NCBI RefSeq assembly: GCF_020509005.1
Contig: NC_063017.1
Span: 868,001 to 932,000, forward strand
DNA length: 64,000 nt
From: Fulvia fulva
Taxonomy: Eukaryota > Ascomycota > Dothideomycetes > Mycosphaerellales > Mycosphaerellaceae
Direction of reading: 5' to 3'
Below the pieces are notes generated by a model. That model did no database searches. It saw only the letters and a list, made by a program, of their open reading frames with translations, and had not been told where the DNA came from. A program made the position numbers and the translations under genes. Positions within the stretch are counted from its first letter, which is position 1. Every line of letters begins with the position of its first letter. Of the stretch, positions 7,557-52,591 are shown in pieces.

Positions 7557-7777
7557 TGTCGCGATCCGAGCGTATATATAGGCAATATCCTATCATCAAA
7601 ACTTAAGGCTACGTACGCTAAGAATTAGGTAACTAATTAGTCACCTATAGCCTCTTTAAGAGTAACACCTATCTATTCTAGATAGATATATATAATATAT
7701 AACCTACTTTTAAAACACCCTATATAAGCCCTTATAATAACTTCCTACACTTCTAACGTGATATATATTTCTATATA
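7557..7777 (-). repeat. RIPped copy of the 213-bp repeat found at 54287-54499
   Basis: The reverse complement of this segment aligns end to end with 54287-54499. Nearly all differences are CA to TA or TG to TA, a textbook RIP pair: the 54-kb copy is the near-original and this is the mutated one. Similarity stops abruptly at the cgcgaca end in both copies, so that is a real boundary. The other end abuts a Fot1A terminal inverted repeat in both places. Nature unknown; it contains an internal perfect inverted repeat (caggtgact/agtcacctg) in the unmutated copy. Confidence 0.8.
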
Positions 7778-8910
7778 ACGTGCTTTACTACCGAGCGGGC
7801 TATACTACCGAGCGGGCTACTTTTACTAAGAACTATACCACTTCTACTTTAATTACGACGGTATCTTAGTACGATAACATCCTATAGAATCGTTACTAGG
7901 AGGACAAATCCTCTTTAGATTCTTTGCTATCTAGCGAGTCTACTTAATAGGTACGTACGTTATACCTCGACTTACTATATCGCTTATAGCGTCGTAGCCT
8001 TAGTACTAGCCAAACACTATCTAGCGACTTACTACTCACTTCCTACCTCCTAGTATCCTCTAGAGGTATTAATTATAACGCCTTATCGGAGGTTAGAGAC
8101 CCTCTAGACTAAACGTACTTGCGCTTTCGTGCTTTCCGCTATATAAGGGCCTTATTAGACTTACGTAGCTCTCTAATCTTGCTTCGTATAAGAGCTATCT
8201 AATACGCTATCTCTCTACTCCCTCTCTATTGCCCTATTAAACGACCTTCCTCTTTCTACTACGCCTTTCTAAACCCGTAACGACGCTCTAAGACATCATG
8301 ACACCTATTATAAACCCTGTCTCGTCGAAGTTATAGGTGTCCTAGTTAAGAATACTATACTTCTCCTTTATATTACGTATAAGTAAGAACTACTTCTCGA
8401 TAACGTCTAGATCTTCTATTAGGGCTCGCTAACGATCGTATCTACGTGTTATACAAACCTTTGGCTCACGATGCCGCCTAATAAACCTGTCTGTCTAATT
8501 GAGACTAGCGGGCTTAAGACCCTTCTCTTATAGTAATGAATCGGCTATTACTCGTATACTAGCCTTTAATAGCGGGAAACCTCTAAGATCTAGCTCGAGT
8601 ATATACTTAAGTATTACTCTCTCTTCTAGCTCTATAAGCTTCTTTGAATTAGGCTCGTAGTCACCCCGAGGAGGTCGTCTATTTAATCGATACCCTAGTA
8701 TAGTTCGAGACGCGTCGTATACCTTTATACTAAGTCGATTCGTAATTATCGCGTCGCGTTTCGTAGCCTAGACAGCTAAGGTCAGTTTGGCCTCGTTTAA
8801 AGATAATATATGCTATAATAGTAGTTATATAGCTATATCTATAGAAGTAGTATAGTTCTTAGTAAAAGTGGCCCGCTCGGTAGTATAGCCCGCTCGGTAG
8901 TAAAGTACGT
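7778..8910 (-). mobile_element. Fot1A-1: internally deleted Fot1/pogo transposon
   Basis: A 1133-bp DNA transposon with terminal inverted repeats that begin acgtgctttactacc and hold two tandem copies of a 17-bp unit containing accgagcgggcta. It is flanked by TA on both sides (7776-7777, 8911-8912), the Tc1/mariner-type duplication. On the minus strand it encodes the transposase N-terminus (pogo/CENP-B-like DNA-binding segment, YEPNSKKLIELEERVILKYILELDLRGFP), reaches the start of the DDE domain (FDETGFIIGV...) and then jumps to the C-terminal tail. The catalytic core is deleted, so the copy is non-autonomous. RIPped. Confidence 0.85.
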
Positions 8911-9579
8911 TACTATTAGCGTATAAAGGATACCCGGTAAATAAGTCTACGGGATAGACTTATAAAGTAAGGGAAGAAATAAAGCGCGGATAGCGGTATA
9001 TATTCTAGGCTACCTTTAGACGGCTTTAGCCGGGGGCACTATAAAAAGCCTAAACTTTGTTTTTTAGTATAGGAGAAGAGAGCGGTAGTAAAGACGAGGG
9101 GTATCTAATAATAATAATACGGATTACTACTACCGCTACGACAATAAGATAGTTACTACCTATAACTAGTACTTATGTTTTATACGTGCTTTACGCTATC
9201 TTTACCCTCCTCTTAGAATATCGTATTCCGCCGAACGACTACCTACCGGTACCTACCTACCTAGGGTACCTCGTTATACGAGCCCGCTATTATTAGCCCT
9301 ACGACTAACTATACTTATCTACCTACGATTCAGTATTAGTTAGAGAGGGTATTAGTCTATAATAACTACGTATACTCTACGCTCCGTATAAGCCCCTTTA
9401 AGGTAGTATATAATTAGCGTAGAGAACCACCCTAAGGACTCGGAATAGCGACGACGGCGACGGAAAGAGACAGAGAACGAGGAGGAGATAAATAGGGAAT
9501 GCTTTATAGAAAGGCAGAGGAAATAGTAATAGTAGAAGAGGGACAATTCCTAGAAAGAGTACTAAAAGGGGTAATAAGT
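8911..9579. other. RIPped sequence, probably the 5' part of LINE-1
   Basis: No domain seen. It lies between the Fot1A-1 right end and the first recognisable LINE-1 ORF1 sequence and may hold the LINE-1 5' UTR and ORF1 start. A 64-residue open frame here on the minus strand is low-complexity and not credible as a gene. Confidence 0.4.
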
Positions 9580-9829
9580 AAGCTCTTCGGCGGACTGAAA
9601 GTACTTAAACAACAAACAGGAACTACGATTAATAGAGCAATCGAAGCGATAAGAAACACCTTCTAGAAAGACCTAAGGTAGGCCTAAGGCCTAAAGACAT
9701 ATACTATAGTAGTAACGAGCCCCCTACTAGCCCCTAAAGCACGGTAGTCCGTATATCTATTATAGACTAGCAGGAGAAGGAAGAGGTAGGTAAGATAATA
9801 GGAAGGGAGATAGTAGAAAAGCTTAGGAT

Positions 9830-10690
9830 GAAGGAGGTAGTAGGAGCAAAGGTAGACAATAAAGGGGTAAGACTATTTATAGCCTATATATAGGATAAGA
9901 AGACCCTAGAGATGAATAAGGAATAGACACTAAAGATTAGCAAGACAGTAAAGGTCTCCTATTAGCAATATATAGTCATTATATATAGAGTCCTAAGATC
10001 CTTCAATATATAAGAAGATATACTAAGCCTTTAGAGACAGAACTAAGTAATAGTCCTAGGACTATAGATCACAAAAGTAGTATAGGTCAGGAAGAAGATT
10101 GAAGAGACTAAGAAGGCCTTATCTCTTGTCTTATAGGTAGGAACTGTAGCCTAGGCAAACAAGGTTCTAGACTAAGGACTATTCTAGGACTACGAGAGAC
10201 TTGAAGTAGAGATATATTAGAGTAACTATAGAGTCCTCTAATGTTTTAAGTGTCAACAGTATAGCTATATTGCCCAAAAGTGTAACAGACCTACACTAGT
10301 CTGCTCCTACTGTACTAGTGATTACGTAACCTAGGAGTGCTAGAAGAAGAAGGAAGACACGAGATGTGCAGCTTGCGGAAGGAAACATCCAGCATAGTCA
10401 AACCAATGTCTAGCTAGACTTGCAGCCTAGTGGAAGGCGAGGGAAGCAAGAGTAACAACTCCTGCAAGATTCTTAGTAGGGGAAAAAGACCAGCTAGCAA
10501 GGACCTTTCACCTAAATAAGAGACCAAGGCCGTAAGATGAGCTAATACCTGCAATAGGGAGGCCAGCACACCTGTTCAGAGCAGGACAAAGCAATGGATA
10601 GATGAAGATACACTAGATGATAGGGAGCTAGTAGGAGGAGTCGGAACAAATAGAGCAACAAAGCTAGGAGAACCAGCCCTACAACCAATC
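9830..10690 (+). pseudogene. LINE-1 ORF1 (gag-like, CCHC zinc knuckles), RIPped
   Basis: RIPped ORF1 with a recognisable nucleic-acid-binding C-terminus at about 10225-10440. The reading CFKCQQYSYIAQKC begins a CCHC knuckle (the His is RIPped to Tyr), followed by CSYCTSDYVTQEC and CAACGRKHPAQSNQC. Three knuckles in a row are typical of ORF1 proteins of fungal Tad1/I-type LINEs, which coat the element RNA. Several in-frame TAG codons stand where CAG would be. The upstream part (about 9860-10200) reads as a charged, helical segment with stops. The start is not assignable. Confidence 0.7.
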
Positions 10691-10704
10691 ATATGACCAG
10701 CCAT

Positions 10705-13700
10705 CCTAATGCCTCACACTAACAAGCTAACCATCGTTCAGTACAATGTCAATAAAAGCAAGGACAAGGTCCAGAGGAGCTTCCTGTAAGCCCTGGACCC
10801 AGAGGTACACCACATTATAGCAATACAAGAACCATAGATCAGCCCACATACCAGAATCCCCTCAATAGTGAAGAGCCTAGAGTATCACTCAGTGGTCAAC
10901 AGAACAGAGGGAGTCCCAAGGTCCTGTATCTACATCAGTAATAAGGTGTTGACTGAGGACTGGCAAGCCTTGCTAAGGGCTGACAGGGACATTACCACAA
11001 TACAACTAACGACATCACATGGCCAGATCCTGGTCCACAGTGTGTATAACCCACCCCCAGAGTCTAGGAGTAGCACACAGCTACACACATTGGAAAGACT
11101 TCTAGAGGCAATAAGTCAACAAGCCTAGAACATAGTGGTTGGGGACTTCAACCTCTATCACCCAACATAGGGATCAGACTTCTCCCTAGCACACTACTTC
11201 CTAGTAGGCAGGCTTATTAGCCAGATAGAGACAGCCTAGCTAGGCCTAGTTACACCAAAGGGAACAGAAACATAGGCAAGAAACAACAGCTCTAGCACAC
11301 TAGACCTGTGTTTTATGTCCTATGCCCTGATATAGAAGGTGGAGAGTTGTAAAGTGAGCAGCTACCTTGAGTCCTTATCGGATCACCTCCCAATCCAGAC
11401 GGACATCTAGCTCACGGTTGAGGAAGAGAGGGAGCCAGAAGAGAAGCTCAACTGGAAAAAGGCCAACTGGTCACTAGTGCAGGAACAGCTAGAGGGTGAA
11501 CTTAAATAGGTGAACATAGACAACTTGTACACAACAGAGGGGATTGACTAGGCTGCCACACAACTGGTGACAGCCATAGAGAGAGCAGCCCAAGCCTACA
11601 TACCTAAGAAGAGGTGGTCACTATACTAGAAGACATACTGGACACATAAATGCATAACTAAGGTCAAGGACGCAAGAAGGGCAAGGAGAAGATAGGAGCA
11701 ACAACGTACCCAGGCCAATTAGGAGACCTATAACAATGCCTGCTAAGCCAAGAAAGCACAGATTAGGAGGGACAAACAGCAAGAATAGAGGTCCACTGTT
11801 GGGATGATCACAGAACATCTAGAGCAAATCTGGAGGCTAGCCAAGTGGGCAAGGAAGACCGAAGATGAGAAGAACTCCCTACCCCAGTTTCCCCCAATAC
11901 AAGACCAGAGAGGACAGGTGCAAACCACTCTGAAGGGGAAGGCAGAGGCATTTGCAAGCCATTTCTTTGGGACCCAGGTGGAGGCAGACCTCAGCAACAT
12001 CCCAGGAGCTCACATCCCACAACTAAGAGAGGCTAGCTAGCATGTAGATGCTAAGGAGATTAAGGGAGTCATTAAGAAACTCAAGGGAAACAAGGCCCTA
12101 GGCCCGGACAAGATCCCTAACTGCTACCTGAAGGTATGTAGAGACCTTATCACCCCAGTACTAGCACCAATCTTCACCTAATATATAGCACAAGGCTATT
12201 GCCTAGGGATCTTCAAACAATCCCTCACATATGTCCTAAGGAAACCCTAGAAAGAGGACTACACCAAACTAAAGTCATATAGGCCAATTGTATTGCTGAA
12301 CACAATAGAAAGCTCCTTAAAAAGATCATTACTTAGAGGCTTACAGAGATTGTGGAGGAACATAACCTCCTCCTAGCAACATAGATAGGGGGTAGGAGAA
12401 AGAGATCTACCCTTATAGTAGTGGAGCTAATTATAGAACAGATAAGACACATCTGGCACTATAGCAACAATAGAGTAGCATCACTGCTCTTACTTGACAT
12501 ATTAGGAGCCTTCGACAATGTCTCCCACACTAGGCTCATCTACATCCTAAAACAGAAGGCTATCCTAATATAGATCGTCACATTTGTGCAATCATTCCTC
12601 CAAAACAGAACAACCCAAATCCTCCTTAGAACCTATAAGGCCCTATAGACACCAATATTAGGCACAGGGATCCCACAAGGATCCACACTCTCACTAATTC
12701 TCTTCCTCCTCTTTGTAGGAGACCTAATGCCACTCCTAGAGACAACAAACACTACAGCATCAGGATTTATCGATGACACAAACATCCTAGCATAGTCAGA
12801 CTCCACAGAACACAACTACAACCTCCTCGTAGAAAGACATAAACAGTGCGAGAAATAGGCAAGAGAACACGGGGCAAAATTTGCACCAGACAAGTACTAG
12901 CTTATCCACTTCAGTAGGGCAAAGACAAAACACAATTTGTAGGCAACAGTACAGATCCAGGGCTTTGAAACTCACCCTACACAGGAACTCAGGGTCCTAG
13001 GGATATGGCTAGACCCAAAGCTTAGCTGGGGTCTATAGGTGAAGAAGGCTCAGGCAAGAGCAGACACAAATAGACAGTCTATAGAAAGGCTTACAGCCTC
13101 TATATAGGGCGCAACCTTCTCTAAGGCAAGGATCATGTACAAGGCTATTTTCAAACCTGTAATGATGTATAGAGTAGCAGTCTGGGCACCAGCAAAGCAC
13201 ACCCTAAAGAGGATTAAGGAACCCCTTAATAGAGCCCAAGCAGCCTGCCTAAAGAGAGTACTTAGGGCCTACAAGTCAACTCCCTGCAAGACATTAGAAA
13301 TGGAGCCAGGAACTGCTCCTATCAAAGAATACCTCCAAGGCTTAAGGAGCCAATATGCAGGCAAGACATCTGTATACCAAGTATAGGGAGCTATCCAAGT
13401 AGCCACACTGAAGATCAGAACCTAATGTACAAGGAAGAGGAGACCTAACAGGCTACACATGATCCCACAAAAGGAAAGAGACCTTACAACATTTTAAGAG
13501 ATTACGGCAGCCCTTGAACAAGGGGAGGCCCACAGAGGCTAAGCCAGCTCAAGAGACAAAGACAAGAAGAAACAAAGCCAAGCTGAGCAAATTGTAGGAT
13601 ACCTCTAGGAAAATAACTGGAGCTAAGAGCACGTAAGACCAGGGGCCCCACTAGCAGCAAGAACATTTGGAAGGTACAACTACCATATCTACAAGGACCT

Positions 13701-14100
13701 AAAGAGGGCAGAAGCAAGTATAGCCATCCAGATTCGTTCTGAGCACATTAGGCTTAGGGCATACTTGCATTAAAGAAGAGTCCTAGGACATGAATCCAAG
13801 AGCTACCTATGTGGCTACCTGTCCTAGAACCCGGAGCACATGGTCCTAGTCTGTAAGGAGTGGGTCAGAGGGAGGAGTCTATAGAGAGCAAAGGCAAGAG
13901 ATAGGCAGTACTAAGCTATTATCAAGAACAAACGAGACATATAAAGGGTAACAAGGTGGATCCTGTCGGAGAACTACCTTGAACAGTTCTCTCTTATAGT
14001 GGAAATAAAGAGATAGATTGAGAAGAGGGAGGAAGAGAGAAAGGAGGAGGAGATAAGGAGGAGGATGGAGGAATAGGGAATGAAGAGGAGGACAGAACTA
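10705..14100 (+). pseudogene. LINE-1 ORF2 (endonuclease, reverse transcriptase, C-terminal zinc knuckle), RIPped
   Basis: The endonuclease/exonuclease/phosphatase domain is visible from about 10720: LTIVQYNVNKSKDKVQ, IIAIQEPW, then VVGDFNLYHPTW near 11135-11170 and SLSDHLPIQ near 11370-11400. The reverse transcriptase follows (KALGPDKIPNCYLK near 12095, GIPQGSTLS near 12665, ASGFIDDTNILA near 12760). A C-terminal CxCG-like block lies near 13800-13850. Stops are mostly TAG at former CAG/TGG positions. The unmutated relative is the frame at 18439-21297. Non-functional. Confidence 0.8.
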
Positions 14101-14759
14101 GGGCCGCGGGCAAGTTAGTTATAGGGTAACAACCATAACACTAGCGCACCCTAAGGGGAGGGAAACGGGAAGAACAAGAGAAGGACAAATCTAAGGAGAG
14201 GGAGAGGAGGTTTTCACCCGTTACTCGGGTTTCCTACCTATATAAATATACTCTATAGCGAGAGACCTATATAGGTCAAGAGGCACCAAAATAGGCAAAT
14301 GAATAATCTATCTATCTATCTATCTATATAAAGGGTTTTATACTTATATAAAGCCTAACCCCGGTCGCTCCGCTTCATAATAGAGGAGATATATATAATA
14401 GCGTAAGCCTAATTAGAACTTTTTTTACTAGTTGTATACCTTATAAGATAGTATCTAATCAATCTATCTAAACCCTATTAACCTACCTCTTTTATAGTCT
14501 AGTAGATATATATATATATATTGTTTATTATACTATTATAGAGCCTATTAGCCTATATAGCTATACTACCTACTTCTAGTTATAAAGGGGAAACGCGTAT
14601 TATAAAGTGAAACCCCCTCTCCTCTCCTATACGTTCTTAACCTTATCTTCTTTCGTGTTTTCCTTATTAAGGGTATACTAGTGTTATAGGCCTACCCTAA
14701 TAATTACCTATCTACACCCCCTTAACCTCCTACCTCTTCTTTATCTACTCCTCCGTCTC

Positions 14760-17311
14760 GCTAGCTAGCGCGAACTGTTTAAGAAAGCCCTACTATAGTA
14801 TCTACTATACTATCCGTCTTACGTCTCGCTTATCCGTTACGATTAACTAGTAGTCGCGTCTTACAACCTTAGCTCTCTACTAGCCTCGTCCTTCTACCTA
14901 TTACGGGCACCGTAGTATTATATACTCCGGGTTCTATAACGGGTAGTTATACTAGTATACTAGGCTATATACTTCCGGGACTTTCCTTCTATATAGGTAG
15001 GCCCTTAACCCGATATATTCGGACCTAATCTATATTGCGATACTTACTTCGGCCCTTATTAGGTCACGGTAGAGTAGGTAGTTATGTCTCTAGAAGGGGC
15101 GTAAGGCTAGGGGTCCTCGATTTAGTAGGGGATTCTCTTTCTATTCCTATTCCTAAAGGTAGCCTACTACCTACTCTACGAGGCTTTACGTCTTTACCTT
15201 ATTACCCTTTTTCCTCCGTACCTTTTCCTCCTCCTCCTTCCTCTCTAGCCACTCCTAGGTTCGCTAAACGACTTTAAACGTACGTAGGTCGTCTTACTTT
15301 TAGCTTTAACGTGCCCTAAGGCTAAGTAGTCGGTCGTACCTCCTAGCGATCTTCTCCGTAGAGTCCTAAATAGCTTATTATACTAGATAATCCGCCGTCT
15401 TCCTAGCGTATTAGATCCTTATTCCCTTAATGTAATGTTTTATCGGGGGGACTCTATCTCTACCTCCGCTACTCTCGTTAGCGTTATCTTATAGGCTCCT
15501 AGTATCTATCTAAGGTTCGTGGCCTACGTCCGGTTTAGGGGTCCCTCTATCCGCTTCGGGATCGGTTTACCTACTCCTCCTATCCCCTATATCTAGGCCC
15601 CGTAGAGTATTACTAGTTTTACGATCGTCTTATATATAATCCTTACCTTATTAAACGTAGCTCCCTATATTAACGTTATAAGTCTAGTTATTATAGCCTT
15701 ATTAACCTAGGCTCTATTCTAGGCTATCCTAATCTAGGGGTTCTAGCTAAGCTTAGGGTCTAGCTAGATTCCTAGGACTCGTAATTCGGGAGAGGGCTTC
15801 GTTACGTAACTCTAGATAGTTACCGTTACTTATATATTATAGTAGGTTCTTGCCTTACTAAAGTAGATAAGCTAGTACTTTTCCGGAGCGAAACGGGCGC
15901 CCTATCGATATGCCTATTCCTCGTATACCTCGTGTCTTTCTATAAGTAGCCGGTAGTTTTCTTCGGTCGTCGTTAACTAGGCTAGGATGTTCGTATCGTC
16001 GACGAACCCCGAGGCCGACGTCTATAGTAAGGTAAGTAGTAGGATTAGATCCGCTATAAAGATTAAGAAGAGGATCGGAGATAGTATTAAGCCCTAGGGG
16101 ATCCCGTATTCTATATATATAAGGTTGCCCTCCTTACGCCTCCTAAGGATAATCTACGTTATTCTCTCCTTAAGGAAGGAGTTTACGAAACTTATTACCT
16201 ACCGCGGGATTCTTTCTTACCGTAGGCTATAGAGGAGTCGCTCGTAGGAGACGTTATCGAATACCCCTAAGATATCGAGAGATAATAGTAATGTAACCCT
16301 GTTCCGTCTATAGTACTAGAGAGTATAAATCTGTTCGGTAATGAGCTATATAGCCGTTAGGGTAGATCATTTACTCCTACTACCTATCTATATCTCTAGG
16401 AGTAGACTCCTACTACCTATCTATATCTCTAGGAGTAGGTTATTATCCTTAACGAGCTATATAATTCTTCTTACTACGACCTTCTCTAGTATCTTTCCGA
16501 TTATATTTAGGAGTACGATCGGCCTATAGAACATTAGCTTTATATAGTCTTCCTTCTATAGCTTCTTTAGGACGACTATAAGGGACCGCCTAAATAGCCG
16601 TAGGTAGTACCCCTTACGTAGGCAAGCCGTAAATAGTTCGGCGAGGTATAGTACGACTTCTTCTTTATATTCTTTAAGGAGGAGGTTTAGGATACCGTTA
16701 GGTCCCGGGGCCTTACGGCCGTTTAGCTTTCCTATAATCTCCTTTATCTCCTCCTCGCCTACTATCTAGTATATATCGAGTAGCTCCGGGTAGATCGTTC
16801 CCTCTATATCCGTTAGGTCGGCCTTTAACTATATCGTAAAGAAGTAGTAGGCGAACGCCGTCGCCTTCCCTTCCGGCGTTATCTATATTATGCCTATTAT
16901 ATCCTAGATTAGGGGGAAGTATAGTGTCCTGTCCCCGTCTCCGGCCCTTACCTACTTTATAAGCCGCTATATCTACTCCGGGTTCTCTATTACGAGACCT
17001 ATAGTTACCCTCTAGTCTTATCGCTTGTCTCGTCGTATTTAGGCCTTCTTTGCCTAACTTGCTTCCTAGTACTCGTCCTACGCTTCTTAGCTTTACTCCT
17101 TTGTCTATTTTCGCCTTACCCCCCTTACGTCCTTAACTTTAGCTAAGTACTCTAGGGTCTAGAAGGGCTTGTAGTACTTCGAGGGCCTTAGTTCTAGTAT
17201 ATATTCCTCGGCCGCCTACTATATTGTCGTTATTATCTATTCTACCGTACTATTAAGCTCGGCTTCCGTCTTCCCGATACTAGTGTTGTTTAGGTACTAT
17301 TTAAGTAGATT
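14760..17311 (-). pseudogene. LINE-5 ORF2, reverse transcriptase and C-terminal part, RIPped
   Basis: The minus-strand reverse transcriptase is recognised by EYGIP-GLILSPILFLIFIADLI and ASGFVDDTNILA (about 16120-15980), equal in order and spacing to GIPQGSTMSPILFLLFMADLL and ASGFVDDTNILA of the intact LINE frame at 18439-21297. The FVDD catalytic pair survives here, but stops are frequent. The C-terminal block extends to about 14760. A perfect 33-bp tandem duplication (16373-16438) lies inside the reverse transcriptase. The right edge at 17311 is the composite A insertion point. Confidence 0.75.
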
Positions 17312-17388
17312 GGTCGACGACGAGAATCACCTATACGTGGTGTCGGCTACGAACCTCTCGTCTAGCTACGAGAGAGCCAAGTATTCTC
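17312..17388 (+). ncRNA. HDV-like self-cleaving ribozyme, copy A (damaged at one base)
   Basis: This 77-nt sequence starts at the first base of the element. Helices: P1 ggtcgac (nt 1-7) with gtcggct (31-37), including a G1-U37 wobble; P2 gagaat (11-16) with attctc (72-77); P3 acc (18-20) with ggt (28-30); P4 ctctcgt (44-50) with acgagag (57-63). J4/2 is agccaagt (64-71), with the presumed catalytic C at nt 66 (17377). The layout matches the HDV nested double pseudoknot. In this copy nt 22 in L3 is A, where composite B has G. The change is RIP-type and breaks the P1.1 pair G22-C39, so cleavage is probably reduced. Confidence 0.75.
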
Positions 17389-18384
17389 ACGCTAGAGCGT
17401 CGTGGGCGCGACGGGCGCGTAGCGTAGGCGAAGCCGCGGCGAACAGAGGACTACTAGCAAAACGGGTATGAAAACCATCCGACGAGCGTGTACTCGTGTC
17501 GGGAGCGAGTCCCTCTTCTTTCTACGTGTAAGAAGGGCGCGGAACCGTGGCCTATACGCTCGACAGGACACCTCTGGTATAAGTGCAGAATTTTCACCTC
17601 CGGAGACCGCAAACCGAGCGGGCTAAGCGACGAACATTAGACGAGCGGACTACAGAACAACAACTGAGCGGACTATGCAACGGCGTCGAGCGGACTACGA
17701 AACAATCTGGTGTTTGCCAGCGGGCAATGCGGTGGGTAGGTGGACACGCGACGAAGCCTGTAAGGGCCTGTTAAACACCCGGTATAGGAACGAGGGTTTT
17801 GCCTAAGGCACTGCCTGTCCCGCTACACAACGCACCTAGTCTGACATGGTAGATTGCGACGAGGAAAAGACGATAGCCTGAGCAAGGAAAAGACGGCTGT
17901 TAGGACGGGGAAAAGACGTACAATGCAAGTGGATTAGTTCTGTGATCGGGGAGGATCGAGGGCAGGGTGATAAGGAACTTCATATTGGTTAGTAGGTGGA
18001 AACGCAAGGAGTACGCTGCCCGGCGTGGTGTGTGCCCCGAGCAGACCTGCGAGGCATGGACGGCCGCTTTCTAGAGATAGGCTGCGGTAACGCGAAGGGC
18101 GTCAAAACCTAGGGCGTGGTGTACACTGGCAGCGACGGCTGACACTGTCTGTACAGCCCGAGAGGACGGATGCGCATGTCGGTCAATAGAGAGCACTAAA
18201 GGGCTCAGGCCTATGGAGGTGGATATTGGCTTAAGGAGCAAACAGGGAGGGAGGGCGTAGAGGGAAGCTTTTGCTCCGGGCTAACCTCTCGAAACGAGGC
18301 TACACGGTGGTGCTAGATGAGTGGGAAAGCGCGGTTAAGACTTGTCACCTTATCTCGTAGCTAGCTTGCTAAATACGATTCCTT
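17312..18384 (+). repeat. 1.07-kb WEIRD-like module, arm A (inverted relative to 23404-24484)
   Basis: Near-identical, in inverted orientation, to 23404-24484. The observed differences are mostly CA/TG to TA changes in one copy or the other, i.e. light RIP. The first 250 nt are rich in hairpins (the ribozyme, then stems around 17487-17505 and 17511-17538). Four copies of gagcgg(a/g)cta occur at 17616-17625, 17643-17652, 17666-17675 and 17688-17697. No convincing protein is encoded: the 63-residue frame at 17583-17774 lacks an ATG. The module ends at the same base (...ccttgcc) in both composites. Confidence 0.85.
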
Positions 18385-21297
18385 CCTTGCCATCACTTCC
18401 TAGCTAACAGACTCCTCTCCACTACCCAAAGCAACAACATGCACCTAGTTACCCCAAAGGGCCTAACTACCTGGTCACAGAGAGCAAGCTCAAGCACCAT
18501 TGACCTGTGCTTTGCATCACATGACCTGCAGCAGAAGGTCACCAGATGCTGGGTTAACCAGGACTTGGAGTCCTCATCAGATCACCTCCCAATTCAGGTG
18601 GAGTTTGAAACACAGACACAGCAGGAAGGAGACCTAGAACCTCAGCTGGCCTGGAAGGCAGCCAACTGGGAACAGATCAGACAAGACCTGGAACAGAAGC
18701 TAGCTGGACTAGAGACCAGGAGACTGGAAACAGCCTTAGACATAGACCAAGCAGTGGCAGAACTGGTTAGAACAATGCAGGAAACTGCGGCAGCCCACAC
18801 CAGAGAAAAGAAACAGTCACTGTACCAGAAGCCATTCTGGACAAAGGAATGCTCAGAGAAGGTCAAGGCAGCCAGGCAGGCCAGGAGAGCCCTTACCCAG
18901 AGCCACTCCCAGGAAGCATGGGACAGATACAACCAGGCAACCAGAGACAAGAAGGCCCAGATCAAGAGGGACAAGATGCTGGAGTGGAGGTCAACAGTTG
19001 GATCCATTACCCAGAATCCTGAGAAGATGTGGAAACTAGCAAAGTGGGCAAGACAACCCACACAGGACAGAAACATGCTGCCCCAGTTTCCAAACATTGA
19101 AGACCAGGAAGGAGTAATCCAACACACTCTCCCAGGAAAGGCACAGGCATTGGGGAAACATTTCTTTGGCACACAGGTAGAAGCTGACCTGCAGGATCTG
19201 GAGGGCAGTGTGTATCCAACACCACTAGAGCAATCCTGCACAGTAGGAGAGGGAGAGATCAAGAGCATCATTAAGACACTCTCAGGAAACAAGGCCCCAG
19301 GACCAGATGGGATTCCAAACTTGTTCATTAAGACATGCAAGGACCAGATCTCCCCTGCACTATCAAACATCTTTTCACAGTGCATGGCCCAAGGACACTG
19401 CCCTAAACACTTCAAGGAGTCACTGACTGTGGTCTTGAGAAAACCACAGAAAGAGGACTACACAAAGCTAAAGGCATACAGACCTATTGCCTTGCTCAAC
19501 ACACTAGGCAAACTCCTGGAAAAGATCATAGCAGAAAGGCTGACAAACCTAGCTGAAGAACATGGAATTCTCCCTGAAGAACAGATGGGAGGCAGGAAAC
19601 AAAGATCAACACTAACAGCTGTGGAACTTATCACAGAGCAGATCAAGACCCTATGGCACTTTGGGAACAACAAAGCAGCCACACTCCTCTCACTAGACAT
19701 ATCAGGAGCCTTTGACAATGTCTCACACCAGAGGCTGATCCACATCCTAAAACAGAAGGCTATCCCTAACTGGACAGTCCAGTTCATCCAGTCCTTCCTT
19801 AGAGGCAGAACCACAAGACTAAGACTGGGCAGATACAAATCTGACAGCATGCCTACAGAGACAGGAATCCCACAGGGATCAACAATGTCTCCAATCCTGT
19901 TTCTCCTCTTTATGGCAGACCTGCTAGCAAAGCTAAACTCCAGAAACACATCAGCCTCAGGGTTTGTAGATGACACAAACATCCTAGCCTGGTCAGACAG
20001 CACAGAAGAGAACTGCAGAATCTTGCAGAAGAAACACAAGGAATGTGAGGAATGGGCCAGGAAACATGGAGCCAGATTTGCCCCAGAGAAGTATCAACTC
20101 ATCCACTTCAGTAGAGCCAGAAACAGACACAATATGCAAGCCCCAATCACTATTCAGGGACACACAACAGAACCCTCTAGTGAATTAAGGGTGCTAGGAA
20201 TATGGATGGATCCAAAGCTTAGCTGGGGACCACAGGTCAAGAAAGCACAGGCAAGAGCAGACAACAACAGGCAATCAATTGACAGGCTTACAGCCTCCAC
20301 ATGGGGAGCCACATTTGCGAAAGCAAAGGTTATGTACAAGGCCATTGTGAAGCCAGCCATGCTATATGGAGCCCAGATCTGGTCAGCCCAAGACAAGATC
20401 CCAAAGAGAATTGCAGATCCCATCAGCAGAGCCCAAGCCTCCTGTCTGAAAAAGGTGCTTGGAGCATACAAGTCAACTCCAACAAGGGTGGTCGAAATGG
20501 AGTCTGGCTCCCCACCAGCCAAGCTCTACCTTCAAGGGTTGAGATACCAGTATGCAGGAAAGACGTCTGCATACCCAGCCCAGCTAGTAATCCAGAAGGC
20601 AGTCAACAAAATCAGGAGCCAGTGCACAAGAAGGCACAGACAAGCAAGACCCAATCCAGCCCCACAGAAGCAGCAGGACCTGCAGAAGTTCAAAGAACTA
20701 ACAGAACAGCTGCACCTAGCCCAGCAGGAACAGGACAGAAGGGCTCAAGGGAGAGGATCAGCAGCCAGCCAAGGGAAGAAGCAACAGTCTCTAGCTGAAA
20801 GGATGGCAGGACTCCTCTGGAAGACTGAATGGACAAGAACCCCACAGAGGCCAGGAACCCCAAAGGCACTCCAACAGTTTGGTAGCCACAACTACCTACT
20901 GTACTCAGACCTGACCAGGTCAGAAGCAAGCATAGCAATACAAATCCGCTCTGAACACATCGGAGTCAGGGCATACCTGCATCAGAGAAAAGTCCCAGGT
21001 ATCGAAGACAAGAGTTGCCCATGCGGCTACCTGTCCCAGAATGTCGAACATAGACTTCTGGTTTGCAAAGAATGGAGTACAGGGAGAGGTGAATGGAGGG
21101 CAAGGGCAAGGAACAGAAACTTCCAAGCCATGATCAGCAATAAGGGAGACCTCCAGAGAATTACAAGGTGGATCATCCACCAAGGATTTTTGGAGCAGTT
21201 CTCTCTTACTAGGGAAACAGAGAGATGGATTGAGGAGAGAAAGAAGGAGGAGGAGAGCAGGAAGAGGGGGACAACTCTAGGGTTGCAGACAAGGTAG
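18385..21297 (+). CDS. LINE ORF2 fragment: late endonuclease, reverse transcriptase, C-terminal zinc knuckle (open)
   Basis: A single open frame enters from the module junction; the first ATG is at 18439 and gives 952 residues. From that ATG: end of the EEP endonuclease (SSSTIDLCF, SSSDHLPIQVEF, about 17-56); reverse transcriptase with GNKAPGPDGIPN (283-294), YRPIALLNTLGKLLEKI (347-363), SLDISGAFDNV (418-428), GIPQGSTMSPILFLL (476-490) and catalytic FVDD (509-512); a thumb-like region with LRVLGIWMDPKLSWG (583-597); and a C-terminal CxCG...H...C knuckle near residues 855-875. The endonuclease N-terminus and ORF1 are missing, so the copy is not autonomous. Translation initiation is doubtful. 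The frame shows how little RIP has touched this insertion. Family: Tad1-like. Confidence 0.85.
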   Translation, partial: PCHHFLANRLLSTTQSNNMHLVTPKGLTTWSQRASSSTIDLCFASHDLQQKVTRCWVNQDLESSSDHLPIQVEFETQTQQEGDLEPQLAWKAANWEQIRQDLEQKLAGLETRRLETALDIDQAVAELVRTMQETAAAHTREKKQSLYQKPFWTKECSEKVKAARQARRALTQSHSQEAWDRYNQATRDKKAQIKRDKMLEWRSTVGSITQNPEKMWKLAKWARQPTQDRNMLPQFPNIEDQEGVIQHTLPGKAQALGKHFFGTQVEADLQDLEGSVYPTPLEQSCTVGEGEIKSIIKTLSGNKAPGPDGIPNLFIKTCKDQISPALSNIFSQCMAQGHCPKHFKESLTVVLRKPQKEDYTKLKAYRPIALLNTLGKLLEKIIAERLTNLAEEHGILPEEQMGGRKQRSTLTAVELITEQIKTLWHFGNNKAATLLSLDISGAFDNVSHQRLIHILKQKAIPNWTVQFIQSFLRGRTTRLRLGRYKSDSMPTETGIPQGSTMSPILFLLFMADLLAKLNSRNTSASGFVDDTNILAWSDSTEENCRILQKKHKECEEWARKHGARFAPEKYQLIHFSRARNRHNMQAPITIQGHTTEPSSELRVLGIWMDPKLSWGPQVKKAQARADNNRQSIDRLTASTWGATFAKAKVMYKAIVKPAMLYGAQIWSAQDKIPKRIADPISRAQASCLKKVLGAYKSTPTRVVEMESGSPPAKLYLQGLRYQYAGKTSAYPAQLVIQKAVNKIRSQCTRRHRQARPNPAPQKQQDLQKFKELTEQLHLAQQEQDRRAQGRGSAASQGKKQQSLAERMAGLLWKTEWTRTPQRPGTPKALQQFGSHNYLLYSDLTRSEASIAIQIRSEHIGVRAYLHQRKVPGIEDKSCPCGYLSQNVEHRLLVCKEWSTGRGEWRARARNRNFQAMISNKGDLQRITRWIIHQGFLEQFSLTRETERWIEERKKEEESRKRGTTLGLQTR

Positions 21298-21506
21298 TCA
21301 GAGGCTAACCACCATGACACTAGTGCACCCTAATGGAAGGAAAACTGAGAACTCATGGCAAGGAAGCTATTAGAGAAGGAGAGGAGGTTTTTACCTAGGA
21401 ATAGGTTTCCTACCTTATGCAGTAACATATATAGACATAAACCCGCATGGGCCGGAGGGCACCACAACGGGTAAATGAATCATCTATCTATCTATTTAAG
21501 TAGATT

Positions 21507-22195
21507 CCGGATCTCCTCCTAGGGAGCTTTTTTCTAGTTAAGGCGCTTTTCACCCCGAAGCTCCTCTTCTATCCCCGTCGCTATCGTTATCTAGATAGGG
21601 ATATAGTCTAACCCTACCTCTAGGGCAAGGTTAGGTCTATACTCTACTGGCCTTATTACTACGTCTCTTAATAGGAAGTATAGGTCGATAGTACTCGCGC
21701 TTGTTCTTACCTACTACGTCTCTATACCCTTTAGGGTTACGAGCTCTATATCCCTACTTTCCGTGATCTCTAGGAGCTTACTACCTAGATATACGTAAGG
21801 GGGGGGGTGAATTCTAGCCCCTACGTTAGGTAGTAGAGGTTAAAGTCGCCTAGGAGGATATAGTTTATATCTCCTTAGTCGAGTACCTAGTCAAGTCGTA
21901 CTAGCGTGCCGAGGTCTCTACTCGTTCTTCCCCAAGGAGGAGGGTTATAGACGTTATATATCTAGATAGGCCCTTGACTCGTAGTGATTTAGATAGTCGT
22001 AATGTCTCCTTAACTCCCTTCTAGGTACGAGATTACCTTCTAGGCGTCCGTACGTAATGCTTTACTAACGTATATATATGTCCTTAGGGTATAGCCTATG
22101 CCTCCCTCAATAGCTATATAGTACCGTAGGTCGGTATAGGTAGTAGGTCTTCGAGTATATAGGTTAATCTATAGCTCTTATATCGCTACGATATA
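21507..22195 (-). pseudogene. LINE-5 ORF2, endonuclease segment, RIPped
   Basis: Minus-strand frame reading IVAI-EL near 22195-22175 and GDINYILLGDFNLYYL near 21870-21835: the EEP endonuclease motifs of a LINE ORF2, including the GDFN block. The domain N-terminus (LTII-CNVNKSKDKV) lies beyond composite B, at about 24590-24540. The segment is bounded by the two insertions: its left end carries the composite A TSD (21492-21506) and its right end the composite B TSD (22185-22195). A run of nine or more G occurs near 21800. Confidence 0.7.
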
Positions 22196-22373
22196 GATAG
22201 ATAGATAGATTTGTCATTCCCCTGTTCTAGGACCCTATCCGGCCTATGCAGGTATATATCTATTGTTATGTACAAAGGGAAACCCGAATAGGTGAAAACC
22301 CTTCCCGCCCCCGACTACTCCTTGTCTAGATTAGCTTTCCCTCTGAACGTACGTAGTCCATGTCACTACCCCG

Positions 22374-23403
22374 TTAGCCCCCGCTCCTAGCCGGTCTCGT
22401 CGCGCTGCGTCGTGTCCTCTCTTCCTGCACTGCTCCTACTAGGCGGTACTGTTCTAGCCAGCCCTTCTCTAGTATCCAGTTCGTAATGCGCCGTAGGTCT
22501 TCAGCGTTGTTAAGAAGTGCCCCAATCGTCCGGTTCCTCGCCTTTGCCATCCACTCCCCCCTTCCTAGCGACCACCTCGGACAGACGAGGAGTGCGTGCC
22601 GTACGTTCTGGGAGCGATAGCCGCAGGGGCAGCTAGTATTCGTGTATCCTGGGACCTTCCTCCATGATAGGTACCCCTGGAGGCCGATGTGTTCGCTTCG
22701 CAGTTGGGTTGCTATGCTACTCTGTGCCCTCGTAAGGCGGTAGTGGATGAGCTTCGGGGGGTGCTTGACCGCGGATTTTGTAGCTGACCATTCCTTAGGT
22801 TGTCCCGCTGGCTGAGGGCGTCCACTATGCCCTACAACCTGGTTGTTCCACCTCTCTTTCCATAGTTGCTCTACAAACGATTTCTCACCTTCCCATTGTG
22901 TTGCTAGCTGTTCGTCCCTTGCCCGGTAGTTCGTCTCGTTTCCGGGTCGAATGCCCTTATGCGCTGGTACTGATTCGCGGGCCCTTGCGACTGCACTGGC
23001 GATGACCTTCTGTACTGGGTACTGTGCCGACTTGCCTAAGTAGGAGGTCCGTAGTCCCTGGATGTATAGGTCGATCGGCGGTATAGCGGTCTCGTGCTCA
23101 AGCATCCTCGTTGGTGTCGACTTATATGCCCCGGTGACCTTCCTTAGGCATTGGTTTTGGATCTTCGCTAGCGGCGCGACGAGTCCCTTCGATGGGCAGG
23201 CCCTCTCGCCTAAGGACCACACTTGGCTGCCATAGGTAAGGACTGGCCGTACAATAGCCGTATATAGAAGTCGTGACTGCCGGAAGTCCGCCCCCCATGT
23301 GGACGCAGTGAGCCTCTGGCATGATGCCATATTCTGTTCAGCTTTCCGTAATATTGCCTGTACGTGCTTCCTCCACCGTAGCGCCGGGTCCACCCATAGT
23401 CCG
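22374..23403 (-). CDS. LINE ORF2 C-terminal fragment (open, headless)
   Basis: An open minus-strand frame beginning at the module junction (LGLWVDPALRWRKHVQAI...) and running about 343 residues. It corresponds to the post-reverse-transcriptase thumb and C-terminus of a Tad1-like ORF2: LTASTWGADF, YGSQVWSLG, CLRKVTGAYKSTPTRMLEHE, SSIATQLRSEHIGLQGYLSWRKVPGY, then the knuckle CPCGYRSQNVRHALLVC and a closing WILEKGWLEQYRL. No catalytic reverse transcriptase motif is included, and no ATG is needed or seen at the head. The same sequence, with very few differences, recurs at 63224-64000. Not an autonomous gene. Confidence 0.85.
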
Positions 23404-24484
23404 AGGCAAGGAAGGAATCGTATTTAGCAAGCTAGCTACGAGATAAGGTGACAAGTCTTAACCGCGCTTTCCCACTCATCTAGCACCACCGTGTAGCCTC
23501 GTTTCGAGAGGTTAGCCCGGAGCAAAAGCTTCCCTCTACGCCCTCCCTCCCTGTTTGCTCCTTAAGCCAATATCCACCTCCATAGGCCTAAGCCCTTTAG
23601 TGCTCTCTATTGACCGACATGCGCATCCGTCCTCTCGGGCTGTACAGACAGTGTCAGCCGTCGCTGCCAGTGTACACCACGCCCCAGGTTTTGACGCCCT
23701 TCGCGTTACCGCAGCCTATCTCTAGAAAGCGGCCGTCCATGCCTCGCAGGTTTGCTCGGGGCACACACCACGCCGGGCAGCGTACTCCTTGCGTTTCCAC
23801 CTACTAACCAATATGAAGTTCCTTATCACCCTGCCCTCGATCCTCCCCGATCACAGAACTAATCCACTTGCATTGTACGTCTTTTCCCCGTCCTAACAGC
23901 CGTCTTTTCCTTGCTCAGGCTATCGTCTTTTCCTCGTCGCAATCTACCATGTCAGACTAGGTGCGTTGTGTAGCGGGACAGGCAGTGCCTCAGGCAAAAC
24001 CCTCGTTCCCATACCGGGTGTTCAACAGGCCCTTACAGGCTTCGTCGCGTGTCCACCTACCCACCGCATTGCCCGCTGGCAAACACCAGATTGTTTCGTA
24101 GTCCGCTCGACGCCGTTGCATAGTCCGCTCAGTTGTTGTTCTGTAGTCCGCTCGTCTAATGTTCGTCGCTTAGCCCGCTCGGTTTGCGGTCTCCGGAGGT
24201 GAAAATTCTGCACTCATACCAGAGGTGTCCTGTCGAGCGTATAGGCCACGGTTCCGCGCCCTTCTTACACGTAGAAAGAAGAGGGACTCGCTCCCGACAC
24301 GAGTACACGCTCGTCGGATGGTTTTTATACCCGTTTTGCTGGTAGTCCTCTGTTCGCCGCGGCTTCGCCCACGCTACGCGCCCGTCGCGCCCACGACGCT
24401 CCAGCGTGAGAATACTTGGCTCTCTCGTAGCTAGACGAGAGGTTCGTAGCCGACACCACGTACAGGTGATTCTCGTCGTCGACC
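23404..24484 (-). repeat. 1.07-kb WEIRD-like module, arm B
   Basis: Inverted partner of 17312-18384. Read on the minus strand it holds the ribozyme (24484-24408), the hairpin-rich leader, four gagcgg(a/g)cta motifs (first at 24180-24171) and the constant 3' end ccttgcc at 23410-23404. It carries several un-RIPped bases where arm A is mutated, and a few the other way round (for example gcttaggcc here for gctcaggcc in arm A). Confidence 0.85.
24408..24484 (-). ncRNA. HDV-like self-cleaving ribozyme, copy B (all predicted pairs intact)
   Basis: Minus-strand 77-nt sequence whose G1 (24484) directly follows the TSD. P1 is 7 bp (1-7 with 31-37, wobble pairs G1-U37 and U3-G35), P2 6 bp (11-16 with 72-77), P3 3 bp (18-20 with 28-30), L3 7 nt (tgtacgt) and P4 7 bp with a 6-nt loop. 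P1.1 can form between L3 G22-U23 and J1/4 A38-C39, the positions used by HDV. J4/2 is agccaagt; C66 (24419) is the expected general acid. P1' falls at nt 31-37 exactly as in HDV. I infer co-transcriptional cleavage 5' of G1, releasing upstream readthrough RNA. Activity is untested. Confidence 0.8.
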
Positions 24485-24639
24485 GCTACGATATAATACC
24501 TTTAGTCGTCGAGTTCCTAGAGGAAGTAGAGCAAAACCTTGTCCTTACTTTTATTAACGTTACACTATATAATAGTGAGGTTGGCTTATATTAGTATTAC
24601 GGACTAGCTAGGATAAGGTCTGTTAGGGTACTCGTTAGC

Positions 24640-25950
24640 TATATAGCTCCTTCGTTTATCGCGCTATCCTATTAGGTTAGTTAGCGTTCGGTCGTTAGGG
24701 GGTACCCGAAGATTCGTATCTATCTAGCTATATATACCGCCCTCTATAGCCCCCTTAGGTGTCCCGGGGGCTAGTAAGTACTCTACTATATATTTTATAT
24801 CGCTTTATCTATCCTTTTCCTCTTTACGGCCTCGAATCCTCTATACTAGAAATTGCTAAGCGTTAGTATAGAGTACCTCGCCGGGGTTATTACCCTAGCC
24901 TAGCGGGCCTTTTCTTGCGCTACTATCCTTATAGGGCATTAGTTCGAGTATACCGGGTGTTTACGGCCGTAGTACGTACACCTCGATTCCTACCGTAGGT
25001 ATTGTTTCCCCTAATACGGTCCTACGTAGTATAGGTACTTAGGGGTCTTCTCGGTATACTTTAGCGCGATATAGCCGTATTGTTAGTAGTTAAAGCATTA
25101 GAGCACTCTATAGCTACTCTTATATATCTCCGTATCGAGGCGTTCGTATTGCTAGAATAGTCCTCCTTCTAGGACCTAGTTCGCTTATTCCGCGGTAGCT
25201 ATCTAGACGATTAGAGAGGAGTACGTCTTAGTAGCTTTGACGTTCTTATTTAGCTACGCTACTTTAGTAAAGCGTACTCTCGGTAAGGTGTTCTAGTTCT
25301 ATATCTAGAGTAGGGCGAGGTCGTTCTCTACCCTAAAGGTCCTTAGTATCCTATAGGCTATTACCGTAAACTACTAGTAAGAGACCTTTACCGACCTTAC
25401 TACCTTAACTATCTAGTCCTTAAGGGTCTCGAGCTTTTATTGGTCTGTCTTATATACTATAAAGAGGCGTATTACTCCTCTAGGCTCGATTTTAGCTCCT
25501 ACTATCTCCTTCTAGCCAATCCTATCTACTAGCTCCTTACTTATTAGGCCCTCTAGCTCTCGCTTCTCCTCCGGGTCCGTAACGTACACCCCAATAGCGT
25601 TGTTTGTCCTTTAGGTCCGTAGGTTAGGGGAGCTAGCTACTACGTTTGCCTATATAGGAGTGTACTAGGTAGTAGCTTTCTATATTATCTACTAGATTGC
25701 TCTCGGGATCTAATGTTCGAGTGCCTTAAGGGCTCCGAGGAGTTAGGCGATCGTGTTCTTATACGCCCTAGCTAGGCGCTTATCTACTTTAAGTATCTCT
25801 TAAGCCTCTTTATAGAGGTCCTTCTATATAGAGGTTTAGTTAACCCGGAGGGGTAGCTTACTCTATATTTATAGACGCGGTTACTATAGCTATTACTAGT
25901 TTAGCTATTATTACTAGCTATACTGTTACTAGCTTAGTAGTAGTGTACTT
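24640..25950 (-). pseudogene. LINE-5 ORF1 (CCHC zinc knuckles), RIPped
   Basis: On the minus strand around 25080-24880 the frame reads as a RIPped run of CCHC knuckles: Q-C-x-N-C-(Q)-(Q)-Y-G-H-I-A-R-like, then CTYC-like and C-x2-C-G-R-K-H-P-like blocks, with Cys codons often mutated. The layout equals the LINE-1 ORF1 C-terminus. Upstream (about 25100-25900) is an arginine/glutamate-rich region with many RIP stops. Expected role: RNA-binding ORF1 protein. The ends are approximate. Confidence 0.55.
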
Positions 25951-26824
25951 TATATCTGTTTTTAGTAGGCGTAGGTTTCCCTTATAAGTTGCTTAATACT
26001 CGCTAGCTAGGCTTCTAGTCTAGAGTCTATATCTCTAGTTCGCCTTCTCCTTTTCGATAGGACTAGCGGGCGACTGTTTAGGTTATAGCGTAAGGTCTTA
26101 TAAGTGTTCTATATATTACTCGAGCTATATACGTTAAGGGTGTATAGTAGGTTAATAGTAAACTACTAGTATAGCTTATAATCTAAGTCAGGTAATGTTC
26201 TAGGTAAATTTCGGCTAGTCTAGAAGGGGGCTTAGGGCCGTAGCTAAGCTATAGAAATAGAGTGACTAGAACCTCGAAATAGGCTAGCTTTAGAGCTATA
26301 TATCTCGATAGGCATCCAGTACGGACAGTTACTTTATAAGTTCCTAAGTTACTCTTAATATACGCTATCGAATATGCCGTACTTAGTAATAGGATAGATC
26401 TTTCGTTTATATAGAGGGGAAACCGTGTCTAGTAGATATAGGCGAGGAAGGTAAGCGTACGTAGAGGTAGGTAAGGTAAGCCTACGTAAGTACGACTTAG
26501 CGTATAAGGTACGGTATAGTAGGCTAGTAGAGTAGACTCGAAGGTATTTCTTGTATTCTAGTTAGCTAGCGTAATCTAGGCTCTACTAACGCTACTAATA
26601 ATACTAGATTAGCCTATCTCTACTATTAAACCGGTCGGCTAATAAGGGCGCGAGAAATACCTTATAGTAGAGGTTATAGTCGTCCGTTTAGCTCGGGCGT
26701 AATCTATTTGCTACCGCTACTATTATTACTACTACTATAACGTTATATCTAGATCCGTCTCTTTATTCCCGGGGGAGGCCCTCTAGACCCCTCTTCCACC
26801 TAAATTAGGCTAGTATAAGCTATA

Positions 26825-28336
26825 ACGTACTTTACTACCGAGCGGGCTATACTACCGAGCGGGCCACTTTTACTAAGAACTGTACTACTTCTATAGATAT
26901 AGCTATATAACTACTATTATAGCGTATATTATCTTTAAACGAGGCCAAACTGACCTTAGCTATCCAGGCTACGAAATGCGACGCGATAATTACGAATCGA
27001 CTTGCTATAAAGGTTTCCTATAACGAGTTTAGTAATAAACCTGCCCGGGTACGCATTTTGTTCGTTACTAGTGTCGATTAAGAGTCGAATTCTTTTGTAG
27101 TTTATAGTGTCTTCGACTCCTAAGGGGTAGAGTCCGGAGCTAGAGGGGTTAGCGTACGTAGCTTATTATTAAGCTTGTCTATCACTACCTATAGGGAGGC
27201 GCGTAGGAACTCTACTTTATCGATATAAGTAATACGCTAGCGTACTAAGCCCGAGAGCTAAGTACCGTATACCTTCTTTAAAGGCAAATAGTAACCTATA
27301 TCTAATAGCTAGAGTAACTACGAGGCGTACGATAGTATATATAGGGCCAAGATCTTATATTCCTTATATAGATTCTAGAATGCCTTCGAGTAATAGCTCT
27401 CGGAGCTATCGATAATAAGTAGTCTCTATACCCTAGTCGTACGAGCTATAGTATACTTCTAGAAATGCTCTAGCTACCGTATACCGAACTTATTATTAGT
27501 CTAGCCGTCCTCTATTAGCCCGATTGTCTAGTCTAGACCTAAGTTACCGTCTAAGTACTAGGTACTAATATACTATTTGCCTATAAGGATAACGTAGGGT
27601 AGGAGTGCTATTCCGTCTATATAGATAGTCTTAATTACTATTACTAATTCTCTATTACCCTATTAAACGACCTTCCTCTTTCTACTACGCCTTTCTAAAC
27701 CCGTAACGACGCTCTAAGACGTAATAACACCTATTATAAACCCTGTCTCGTCGAAGTTATAGGTGTCCTAGTTAAGGATACTATACTTCTCCTTTATATT
27801 ACGTATAAGTAAGAACTACTTCTCGATAACGTCTAGATCTTCTATTAGGGCTCGCTAGCGATCGTATCTACGTGTTATACGAACCTTTAGCTCACGATAC
27901 CGCCTAATAAACCTGTCTGTCTAATTAAGACTAGCGGGCTTAAGACCCTTCTCTTATAGTAATAAATCGGCTATTACTCGTATACTAGCCTTTAATAGCG
28001 GAAAACCTCTAAGATCTAGCTCGAGTATATACTTAAGTATCACCCTCTCTTCTAGCTCTATAAGCTTCTTCGAATTAGGCTCGTAGTCACCCCGAGGAGG
28101 TCGTCTATTTAATCGATACCCTAGTGTAGTTCGAGACGCGTAGTATACCTTTATAGCAAGTCGATTCGTGATTATCGCGTCACGTTTCGTGGCCTAGATA
28201 GCTAAGGTCAGTTTGGCCTCGTTTAAAGACAATATACGCTATAATAGTAGTTATATAGCTATATCTATAGAAGTGGTACAGTTCTTAGTAAAAGTGGCCC
28301 GCTCGGTAGTATAGCCCGCTCGGTAGTGAAGCACGT
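26825..28336 (-). mobile_element. Fot1A-2: Fot1/pogo transposon with full transposase region and two inverted 5' ends
   Basis: Flanked by TA (26823-26824, 28337-28338). On the minus strand the transposase runs from the DNA-binding N-terminus (about 28290-28080, YRLNRRPPRGDYEPNSKKL) through the DDE-type catalytic core: TYNFDETGF near 27770, FILIGK-YIST near 27580, LLIIDSSESYYSKAFQ near 27420, LLQLLDIGYYLPLKKVYG near 27300. This core is lost from Fot1A-1. RIP stops inactivate it. The left 190 bp (26825-27016) are an inverted copy of the right end instead of the C-terminal end seen in Fot1A-1, Fot1A-3 and Fot1A-4. Confidence 0.8.
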
Positions 28337-47222: not shown

Positions 47223-47458
47223 TGTTAAAACAGGTACGGGTGGATGGCAGCGGAGTGGAGTAAGAGATCAATCTTCAACTGACTAATAGCACGAGCATGC
47301 AGCAATATATCAGGAACCAATATGTTGATTGTGTTAGATGTCTATCTAAGCTAAAGGGGAGAGAAGGTATCTCCCTACAAGCTGAGTCATTGTGGATGCC
47401 TCAGGCTGCCAGATCACTTCCTGATTGTTGACTCCCTTTGAGATGCTACATCTTAACA
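47223..47458 (-). repeat. Copia-3 3' LTR (left)
   Basis: 236 bp, tgttaaaaca...catcttaaca on the plus strand. I see no difference from the right LTR at 52604-52839. Confidence 0.95.
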
Positions 47459-47523
47459 CTCCCACTCATCTCGTATGGGAGGTTACAGTCTGCTCACTTC
47501 CTGTCAATAGTACTTGGACCTTT

Positions 47524-52179: not shown

Positions 52180-52591
52180 GGTGTGTATGTTCCAAGGTGG
52201 TGGCTCAGATCCTGCTGAGGCTTCTGGTGTAGAATGGGAAAGTTCGTAGGTGTGGATACCAAGGCCTGCTTGGTAAAGTAAAGAAGGAGCGGTGTGAGGT
52301 CTCGGGGCTAGGACACAGGTCTGTCTCTCCTAGCAGAGCTTCAAATGACTTACTTGAAGTCCTTCTTGATAGTATCTCGATGCAGTTCTGCCTACAGAGT
52401 ATCTTCAAGGTATTGGCTTTGAGTAAGCCGCACAGAGTCCTTGTCTGGGTTACCTATCACTTAGTATCGAACTAAGCTCCTTGATAGGATAGACGGGGTA
52501 GACTTCTGATTCCCAGATGTTTTCTGCTACGATAGCAAGGGATACAAGTAACCTGTACTGATATAGGTTGCTCTTATTCCTGCACAAACCC

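Follow-up and report, generated by a model that had tools for sequence, protein, structure and literature searches.

In C. fulvum, a composite insertion begins with 77 nt that are probably a self-cleaving ribozyme of the HDV-like type, located at the 5' end of a WEIRD-like RNA of 1,080 nt. Minus-strand positions 24484-24408 of the window (the whole 64-kb stretch of DNA analyzed) form the HDV nested double pseudoknot with conserved core residues, as seen both by reading the sequence and with a structural descriptor. The analysis supports the HDV-like fold, its core residues, and its placement precisely at the 5' end; self-cleavage, in vitro and in the cell, would be expected from the sequence. 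Ribozyme nucleotide n corresponds to coordinate 24485-n, and the elements are as follows.

24408..24484, minus strand: HDV-like ribozyme candidate, 77 nt, 5'-terminal in composite B; predicted cut between 24485 and 24484
24478..24484, minus strand: P1, 5' strand, nt 1-7
24448..24454, minus strand: P1, 3' strand, nt 31-37
24469..24474, minus strand: P2, 5' strand, nt 11-16
24408..24413, minus strand: P2, 3' strand, nt 72-77
24468, minus strand: C17, the single nucleotide separating P2 from P3
24455..24467, minus strand: P3 (nt 18-20/28-30) and L3 (nt 21-27), including the P1.1 bases G22 and U23
24446..24447, minus strand: P1.1 partners A38 and C39
24422..24441, minus strand: P4 hairpin, nt 44-50/57-63
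24414..24421, minus strand: J4/2, AGCCAAGT, with the predicted catalytic C66 at 24419

The helices named in the first-pass annotation (P1, P2, P3, P1.1, and P4) and C66 were all found in the sequence. P1 comprises 7 bp, including the wobbles G1-U37 and U3-G35, the former providing the R-Y pair at the predicted cleavage site; the cut is expected 5' of P1, and the element begins at G1. L3 consists of 7 nt (UGUACGU) with U21..G26 as its U.G, P1.1 is formed by G22-C39 and U23-A38, and P4 is a plain 7-bp stem with a 6-nt loop. In J4/2 (AGCCAAGU), C66 is followed by CAA, giving CNAA. A catalytic C followed by NAA in J4/2 and a U.G in L3 have functions that we take to be performed here by C66 and U21..G26. 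U21.G26 (L3), G40, and G65 C66 N A68 A69 presumably correspond to the conserved HDV residues U20.G25, G40, and G74 C75 N A77 A78, respectively. Pseudoknot-free folding favors a different structure (-21.5 versus -19.2 kcal/mol for P1+P3+P4).

The descriptor specified a P1 of 7 bp, a P2 of at least 5 bp, a P3 of 3 bp, a P4 of at least 5 bp, and spacing ranges, plus CNAA in J4/2, P1.1, and the L3 U.G. It was composed after the candidate had been seen and was centered on it, so its figures overstate the case somewhat and serve as a guide only. With both strands of the window scanned, the full descriptor was matched from a single start, 24484(-), immediately following the target-site duplication (TSD), and removal of the U.G term added two shifted starts, 24483(-) and 17313(+), both at WEIRD nt 2. 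Scanning one strand of 40 Mb of first-order Markov sequence yielded 259 bare folds, 16 with CNAA, 5 with both CNAA and P1.1, and no match to the full descriptor. Across loci L001 to L088 (512 kb, both strands counted), matches with CNAA and P1.1 occurred only at WEIRD nt 1 and nt 2, and a search over both WEIRD strands found nothing more except a weaker shifted fold from nt 2. The location at a single predicted base is independent of the post hoc design of the descriptor. Rfam yielded no match, either at the gathering score over the whole window or at an E value of ≤5 over positions 24200-24700.

The candidate heads one of two composite insertions in the window, each consisting of a WEIRD-like copy followed by a LINE fragment and flanked by TSDs.

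23405..24484, minus strand: WEIRD-like non-coding RNA copy, 1,080 nt, composite B
22196..23404, minus strand: LINE fragment of composite B, 5'-truncated, ending in (ATCT)n
24485..24495, no strand assigned: 5' copy of the composite B TSD, 11 nt, TATATCGTAGC, identified by eye
22185..22195, no strand assigned: 3' copy of the composite B TSD, identified by eye
17312..18391, plus strand: WEIRD-like copy of composite A, with its ribozyme at 17312-17388 carrying G22A
18392..21491, plus strand: LINE fragment of composite A, with partial endonuclease and reverse transcriptase
17297..17311, no strand assigned: 5' copy of the composite A TSD, CTATTTAAGTAGATT; 3' copy at 21492-21506

The opening 1,080 nt of composites A and B are 99% alike, after which the two continue at different LINE positions. 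The G22A change in composite A removes one P1.1 pair, and its ribozyme may therefore be inactive. WEIRD is non-coding, the longest ATG-initiated frame being 43 aa on the RNA strand and 62 aa on the other strand, and the 1,080-nt unit carries no poly(A). Several GAGCGGRCTA words occur around WEIRD positions 305-390. Elsewhere in the window, 17-bp tandem repeats of the ACTACCGAGCGGGCTAT type lie at 7751-7819, 26815-26866, 41905-42024, and 60568-60619.

Both limits of WEIRD are fixed in the copies read from this genome (67,169,167 bases, or 67.17 Mb, on 14 contigs). Sequences like the first 31 nt (≤3 mismatches) occur at 432 places, compared with 0 for the control, and the 41-nt 3' end finishing in ..CCTTG occurs at 589 places (≤3 mismatches); the 77-nt ribozyme itself has 131 exact copies. 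Thirty loci were retrieved via the last 296 nt and were hence not selected by their 5' ends. All 30 share one WEIRD start position and a WEIRD length of 1,080 nt, and the 77 nt are unchanged in 29, the exception being L016 with G1A, G22A, and G40A. Among 74 distinct copies found via the first 25 nt, the first base is G in 73 and A in 1. The 3' end is visible in 73 of these copies, 72 of them of standard length and 1 shorter by 5 nt. In the sole copy without its 3' end in place (L098), unrelated sequence breaks WEIRD near nt 600.

WEIRD copies are near-identical, with mostly RIP-like differences, and are too similar for compensatory changes in the ribozyme helices to be seen. Across 72 copies, 455 bases departed from the majority, of which 444 were transitions, 293 of these being RIP-like changes of CpA/TpG to TpA; counted against copy B in 55 copies, 427 of 436 differences were transitions. 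Conservation of the ribozyme region is not above chance, as 203 of 708 windows (WEIRD positions 1-784) are equally invariant, and selection on the ribozyme was rejected for lack of a signal in this comparison. The level of conservation is compatible with a fold that arose by coincidence or persists as an inactive relic, in which case WEIRD would be an ordinary transcript and initiate at G1 by transcription and reverse transcriptase would run to its end. RNAs captured by LINE template switching, such as U6, do usually have full-length 5' parts (PMC2104539). Nevertheless, we consider this explanation unlikely, since the descriptor with CNAA and P1.1 is matched about once per 8 Mb of random sequence, yet here it falls on one predicted base.

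In the first-pass annotation, the ribozyme had been placed on a chimeric LINE, at its exact 5' terminus. Its 5'-terminal position in the chimera stands, but it does not belong to the LINE; rather, it heads the separate 1,080-nt RNA that is joined to LINE pieces. The LINE fragment of composite A contains a reverse transcriptase domain (RVT_1, 5.5e-38) and part of an endonuclease domain. The 349-aa frame of the composite B LINE matched no Pfam family, but its alignment with LINE A shows 43% identity across 355 residues (E value of 1e-87). Full-length LINE copies that were read have different, ragged 5' ends without a ribozyme. A ribozyme on the LINE's own 5' end was rejected, as no descriptor match was found there in L001 to L088, full-length LINE copies included. 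Two further elements were observed in the window. A LINE copy at about 9,500-14,330, 70-73% like LINE A (repeats D13 to D15), has many stop codons and appears RIP-mutated by eye. The element at 47220-52839, apparently young, has an open 1,601-aa frame (47524-52329, minus strand), Copia-like by eye, between 239-bp direct repeats that are 100% identical.

In composite B, G1 (24484) directly adjoins the TSD when read by eye, as had been claimed. TSDs were searched for in 73 copies, together with an (ATCT)n tail, and most of these stretches end before the LINE 3' end; in 7 of 7 copies with a TSD found, the TSD (12-16 nt) adjoins G1 with 0 nt between, in agreement with composite B. Positions -15 to -9 hold a TATATAA-like nick site.

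In all, 108 WEIRD junctions were read, representing 69 different sites. The junctions enter LINE sequence, as established by search or by eye, except in L079 (contig C1) and L106 (contig C3), where a full WEIRD is fused to an internal position in a second copy (donors GCAACGG and GAGACCG), a structure as from a second template jump. Downstream pieces without a nucleotide match to other LINE pieces numbered 6 in the first 73 junctions and 3 in the last 35. Translated, six of these nine (L018, L026, L038, L092, L107, and L135) match LINE protein-coding sequence. The short pieces of L073, L113, and L116 (63-103 nt) gave no translated match; by eye, those of L073 and L116 overlap the LINE stretch of L135, and that of L113 resembles the reverse transcriptase region of L110.

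A switch motif, R-Y-C, is evident among the 60 of 69 sites for which an unbroken LINE donor was found, with a purine at -4 in 55, a pyrimidine at -3 in 59, and C at -2 in 54. YC occupies -3,-2 at 53 of the 60 sites, with seven exceptions, compared with a background of 0.118, or 11.8% (binomial, 1e-41). At each of the two join positions, the base agrees with that of the LINE at 59 of the 60 sites, and the last one or two bases of WEIRD are therefore indistinguishable from those of the LINE.

A few junctions are found in more than one insertion (6, 5, 3, 3, and 3 copies at single sites). Such recurrence would be expected if the ribozyme served the whole chimera in the manner of R2, freeing the 5' end of read-through WEIRD-LINE transcripts, with some chimeras re-mobilizing as units; the R2 and L1Tc ribozymes are indeed described as freeing the element 5' end (PMC3774820, PMC4035085). 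However, the recurring sites also fit R-Y-C hot spots, the LINE pieces are 5'-truncated, and the 69 different sites among 108 junctions imply at least 69 separate joins, and a role for the whole chimera therefore appears improbable. At about 8,826,063-8,836,630 on contig C1 (L146 to L150), three WEIRD-LINE units lie in tandem, 4.67 kb apart. Their flanks and junctions are identical, indicating one chimera insertion duplicated in tandem, and the three WEIRD 3' ends were rejected as a source locus for that reason.

The preferred reading remains a ribozyme that acts on the WEIRD-like RNA before it is joined to the LINE. A longer WEIRD-containing transcript would cut itself just before G1, where the fold and core residues place the cleavage site, and would thereby acquire the fixed 5' end at which the copies begin. 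The LINE reverse transcriptase would begin on LINE RNA through target-primed reverse transcription, halt at an R-Y-C site of the kind found at the many different junctions, and jump to the WEIRD RNA's free 3' end, a limit that is likewise fixed among copies. The WEIRD RNA would then be copied up to G1 and the product inserted with a TSD ending at G1, the position at which the observed TSDs adjoin the element. This scheme implies that a longer precursor and free WEIRD RNA exist in C. fulvum. A capped transcript beginning at G1 would be an alternative source of fixed 5' ends.

No WEIRD source gene or precursor was found, with 108 junctions examined compared with 589 places carrying the 3' end, and there was no solo WEIRD copy among the 108 junctions. 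A Pol III gene was rejected (the B-box is matched at best with 2 mismatches, and the sequence has three internal T4 runs), and an exact 20-mer search of IMG/VR gave 0 matches. The exact 1,080-nt unit without poly(A) and the lack of solo copies, which is shared with M. grisea, where a source gene is likewise lacking (PMC2104539), would fit an extrachromosomal unit-length RNA resembling a viroid or retrozyme, in which one ribozyme cuts multimers to generate the G1 and ..UUGCC ends. This is very unlikely: the head-to-tail junction GCC|GGTCG (≤3 mismatches) occurs 0 times in the genome, the minus strand has no ribozyme by the descriptor, the fold is not rod-like (less stable than 100 shuffles, z of +2.1), and the junctions read, 108, compare with 589 places carrying the WEIRD 3' end. 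On the same grounds, a viroid-like rod as the main reading, a head-to-tail dimer as the WEIRD source, and a minus-strand ribozyme were each rejected. More broadly, WEIRD might represent an RNA genetic element not yet recognized in filamentous fungi, one that lacks a chromosomal source gene, has both ends processed to unit length by one HDV-like ribozyme, and spreads by offering its 3' end (..UUGCC) to the LINE reverse transcriptase as a landing site. A unit-length RNA cut at both ends would account for where WEIRD RNA comes from, but we regard it as unlikely because there is no genomic dimer junction and the junctions read number 108, compared with 589 places carrying the 3' end.

A ribozyme at the first base of WEIRD offers a testable account of how the RNA 5' end is formed and would also account for the complete WEIRD part in every 3'-selected copy read. 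If true, the HDV-like ribozyme would be carried by a client RNA of the LINE reverse transcriptase and not by the LINE. LINEs and fungi are both already known to carry HDV-like ribozymes; one on the template-switched WEIRD RNA was not found in print, as none of the open-licence PMC papers among the matches listed describes a ribozyme from C. fulvum, from a fungal LINE, or on WEIRD or MINE.

HDV-like ribozymes are known at the 5' ends of the R2 and L1Tc/ingi non-LTR retrotransposons (PMC3774820, PMC4035085), with which the candidate shares an HDV-like double pseudoknot at the element 5' end. In those elements the ribozyme is part of the LINE or of its internally deleted derivatives, and some R2 lineages cut upstream in 28S sequence; the C. 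fulvum candidate is instead part of a distinct non-coding RNA that is linked to LINE pieces by template switching. Among fungi, 230 HDV variants have been reported in 26 species by Li and Breaker, with in vitro cleavage shown for those of P. chrysogenum and A. niger (PMC5640933). The C. fulvum candidate resembles these variants in its HDV architecture and in having one more nucleotide, usually C, between P2 and P3 (C17 here). It differs in its cleavage-site pair, C-G in the variants but G-U (G1-U37) here, and in its plain 7-bp P4, whereas theirs has a loop E (PMC5640933). The word "retrotransposon" is absent from the main text of that paper.

A close parallel is with MINE of M. grisea, in which a WEIRD part of about 1.1 kb (1,113 nt) at the 5' side is followed by a 5'-truncated LINE, with TSDs of 10-20 nt (PMC2104539). 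A 2007 study described WEIRD as a non-coding RNA that was highly expressed, had no known function, and for which no source gene was found (PMC2104539), and its expression in Magnaporthe has been published by RT-PCR (PMC2104539, PMC3978060). The available text on M. grisea mentions no ribozyme (PMC2104539), and three 20-nt M. oryzae primers (two for WEIRD and one for MINE; PMC3978060), the primers alone being the basis of this comparison, have no match in the C. fulvum WEIRD. The numbers also differ, as C. fulvum has hundreds of places compared with 33 bipartite chimeras in M. grisea (PMC2104539). The likeness to MINE and WEIRD drawn in the first-pass annotation is borne out by a complete non-coding 5' part of about 1.1 kb (1,080 versus 1,113 nt), a 5'-truncated LINE flanked by TSDs, the lack of solo copies, and the switch motif. 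Matching by architecture rather than by sequence supports the 1,080-nt RNA as the putative C. fulvum counterpart of Magnaporthe WEIRD. Gogvadze et al. described 28 different switch sites in MGL with the consensus GCC*A/U (PMC2104539), and the R-Y-C sites of C. fulvum resemble these GCC-like sites. The motif is thus of the same type in both fungi, and a second, distantly related fungus is tied to the same template-switch motif.
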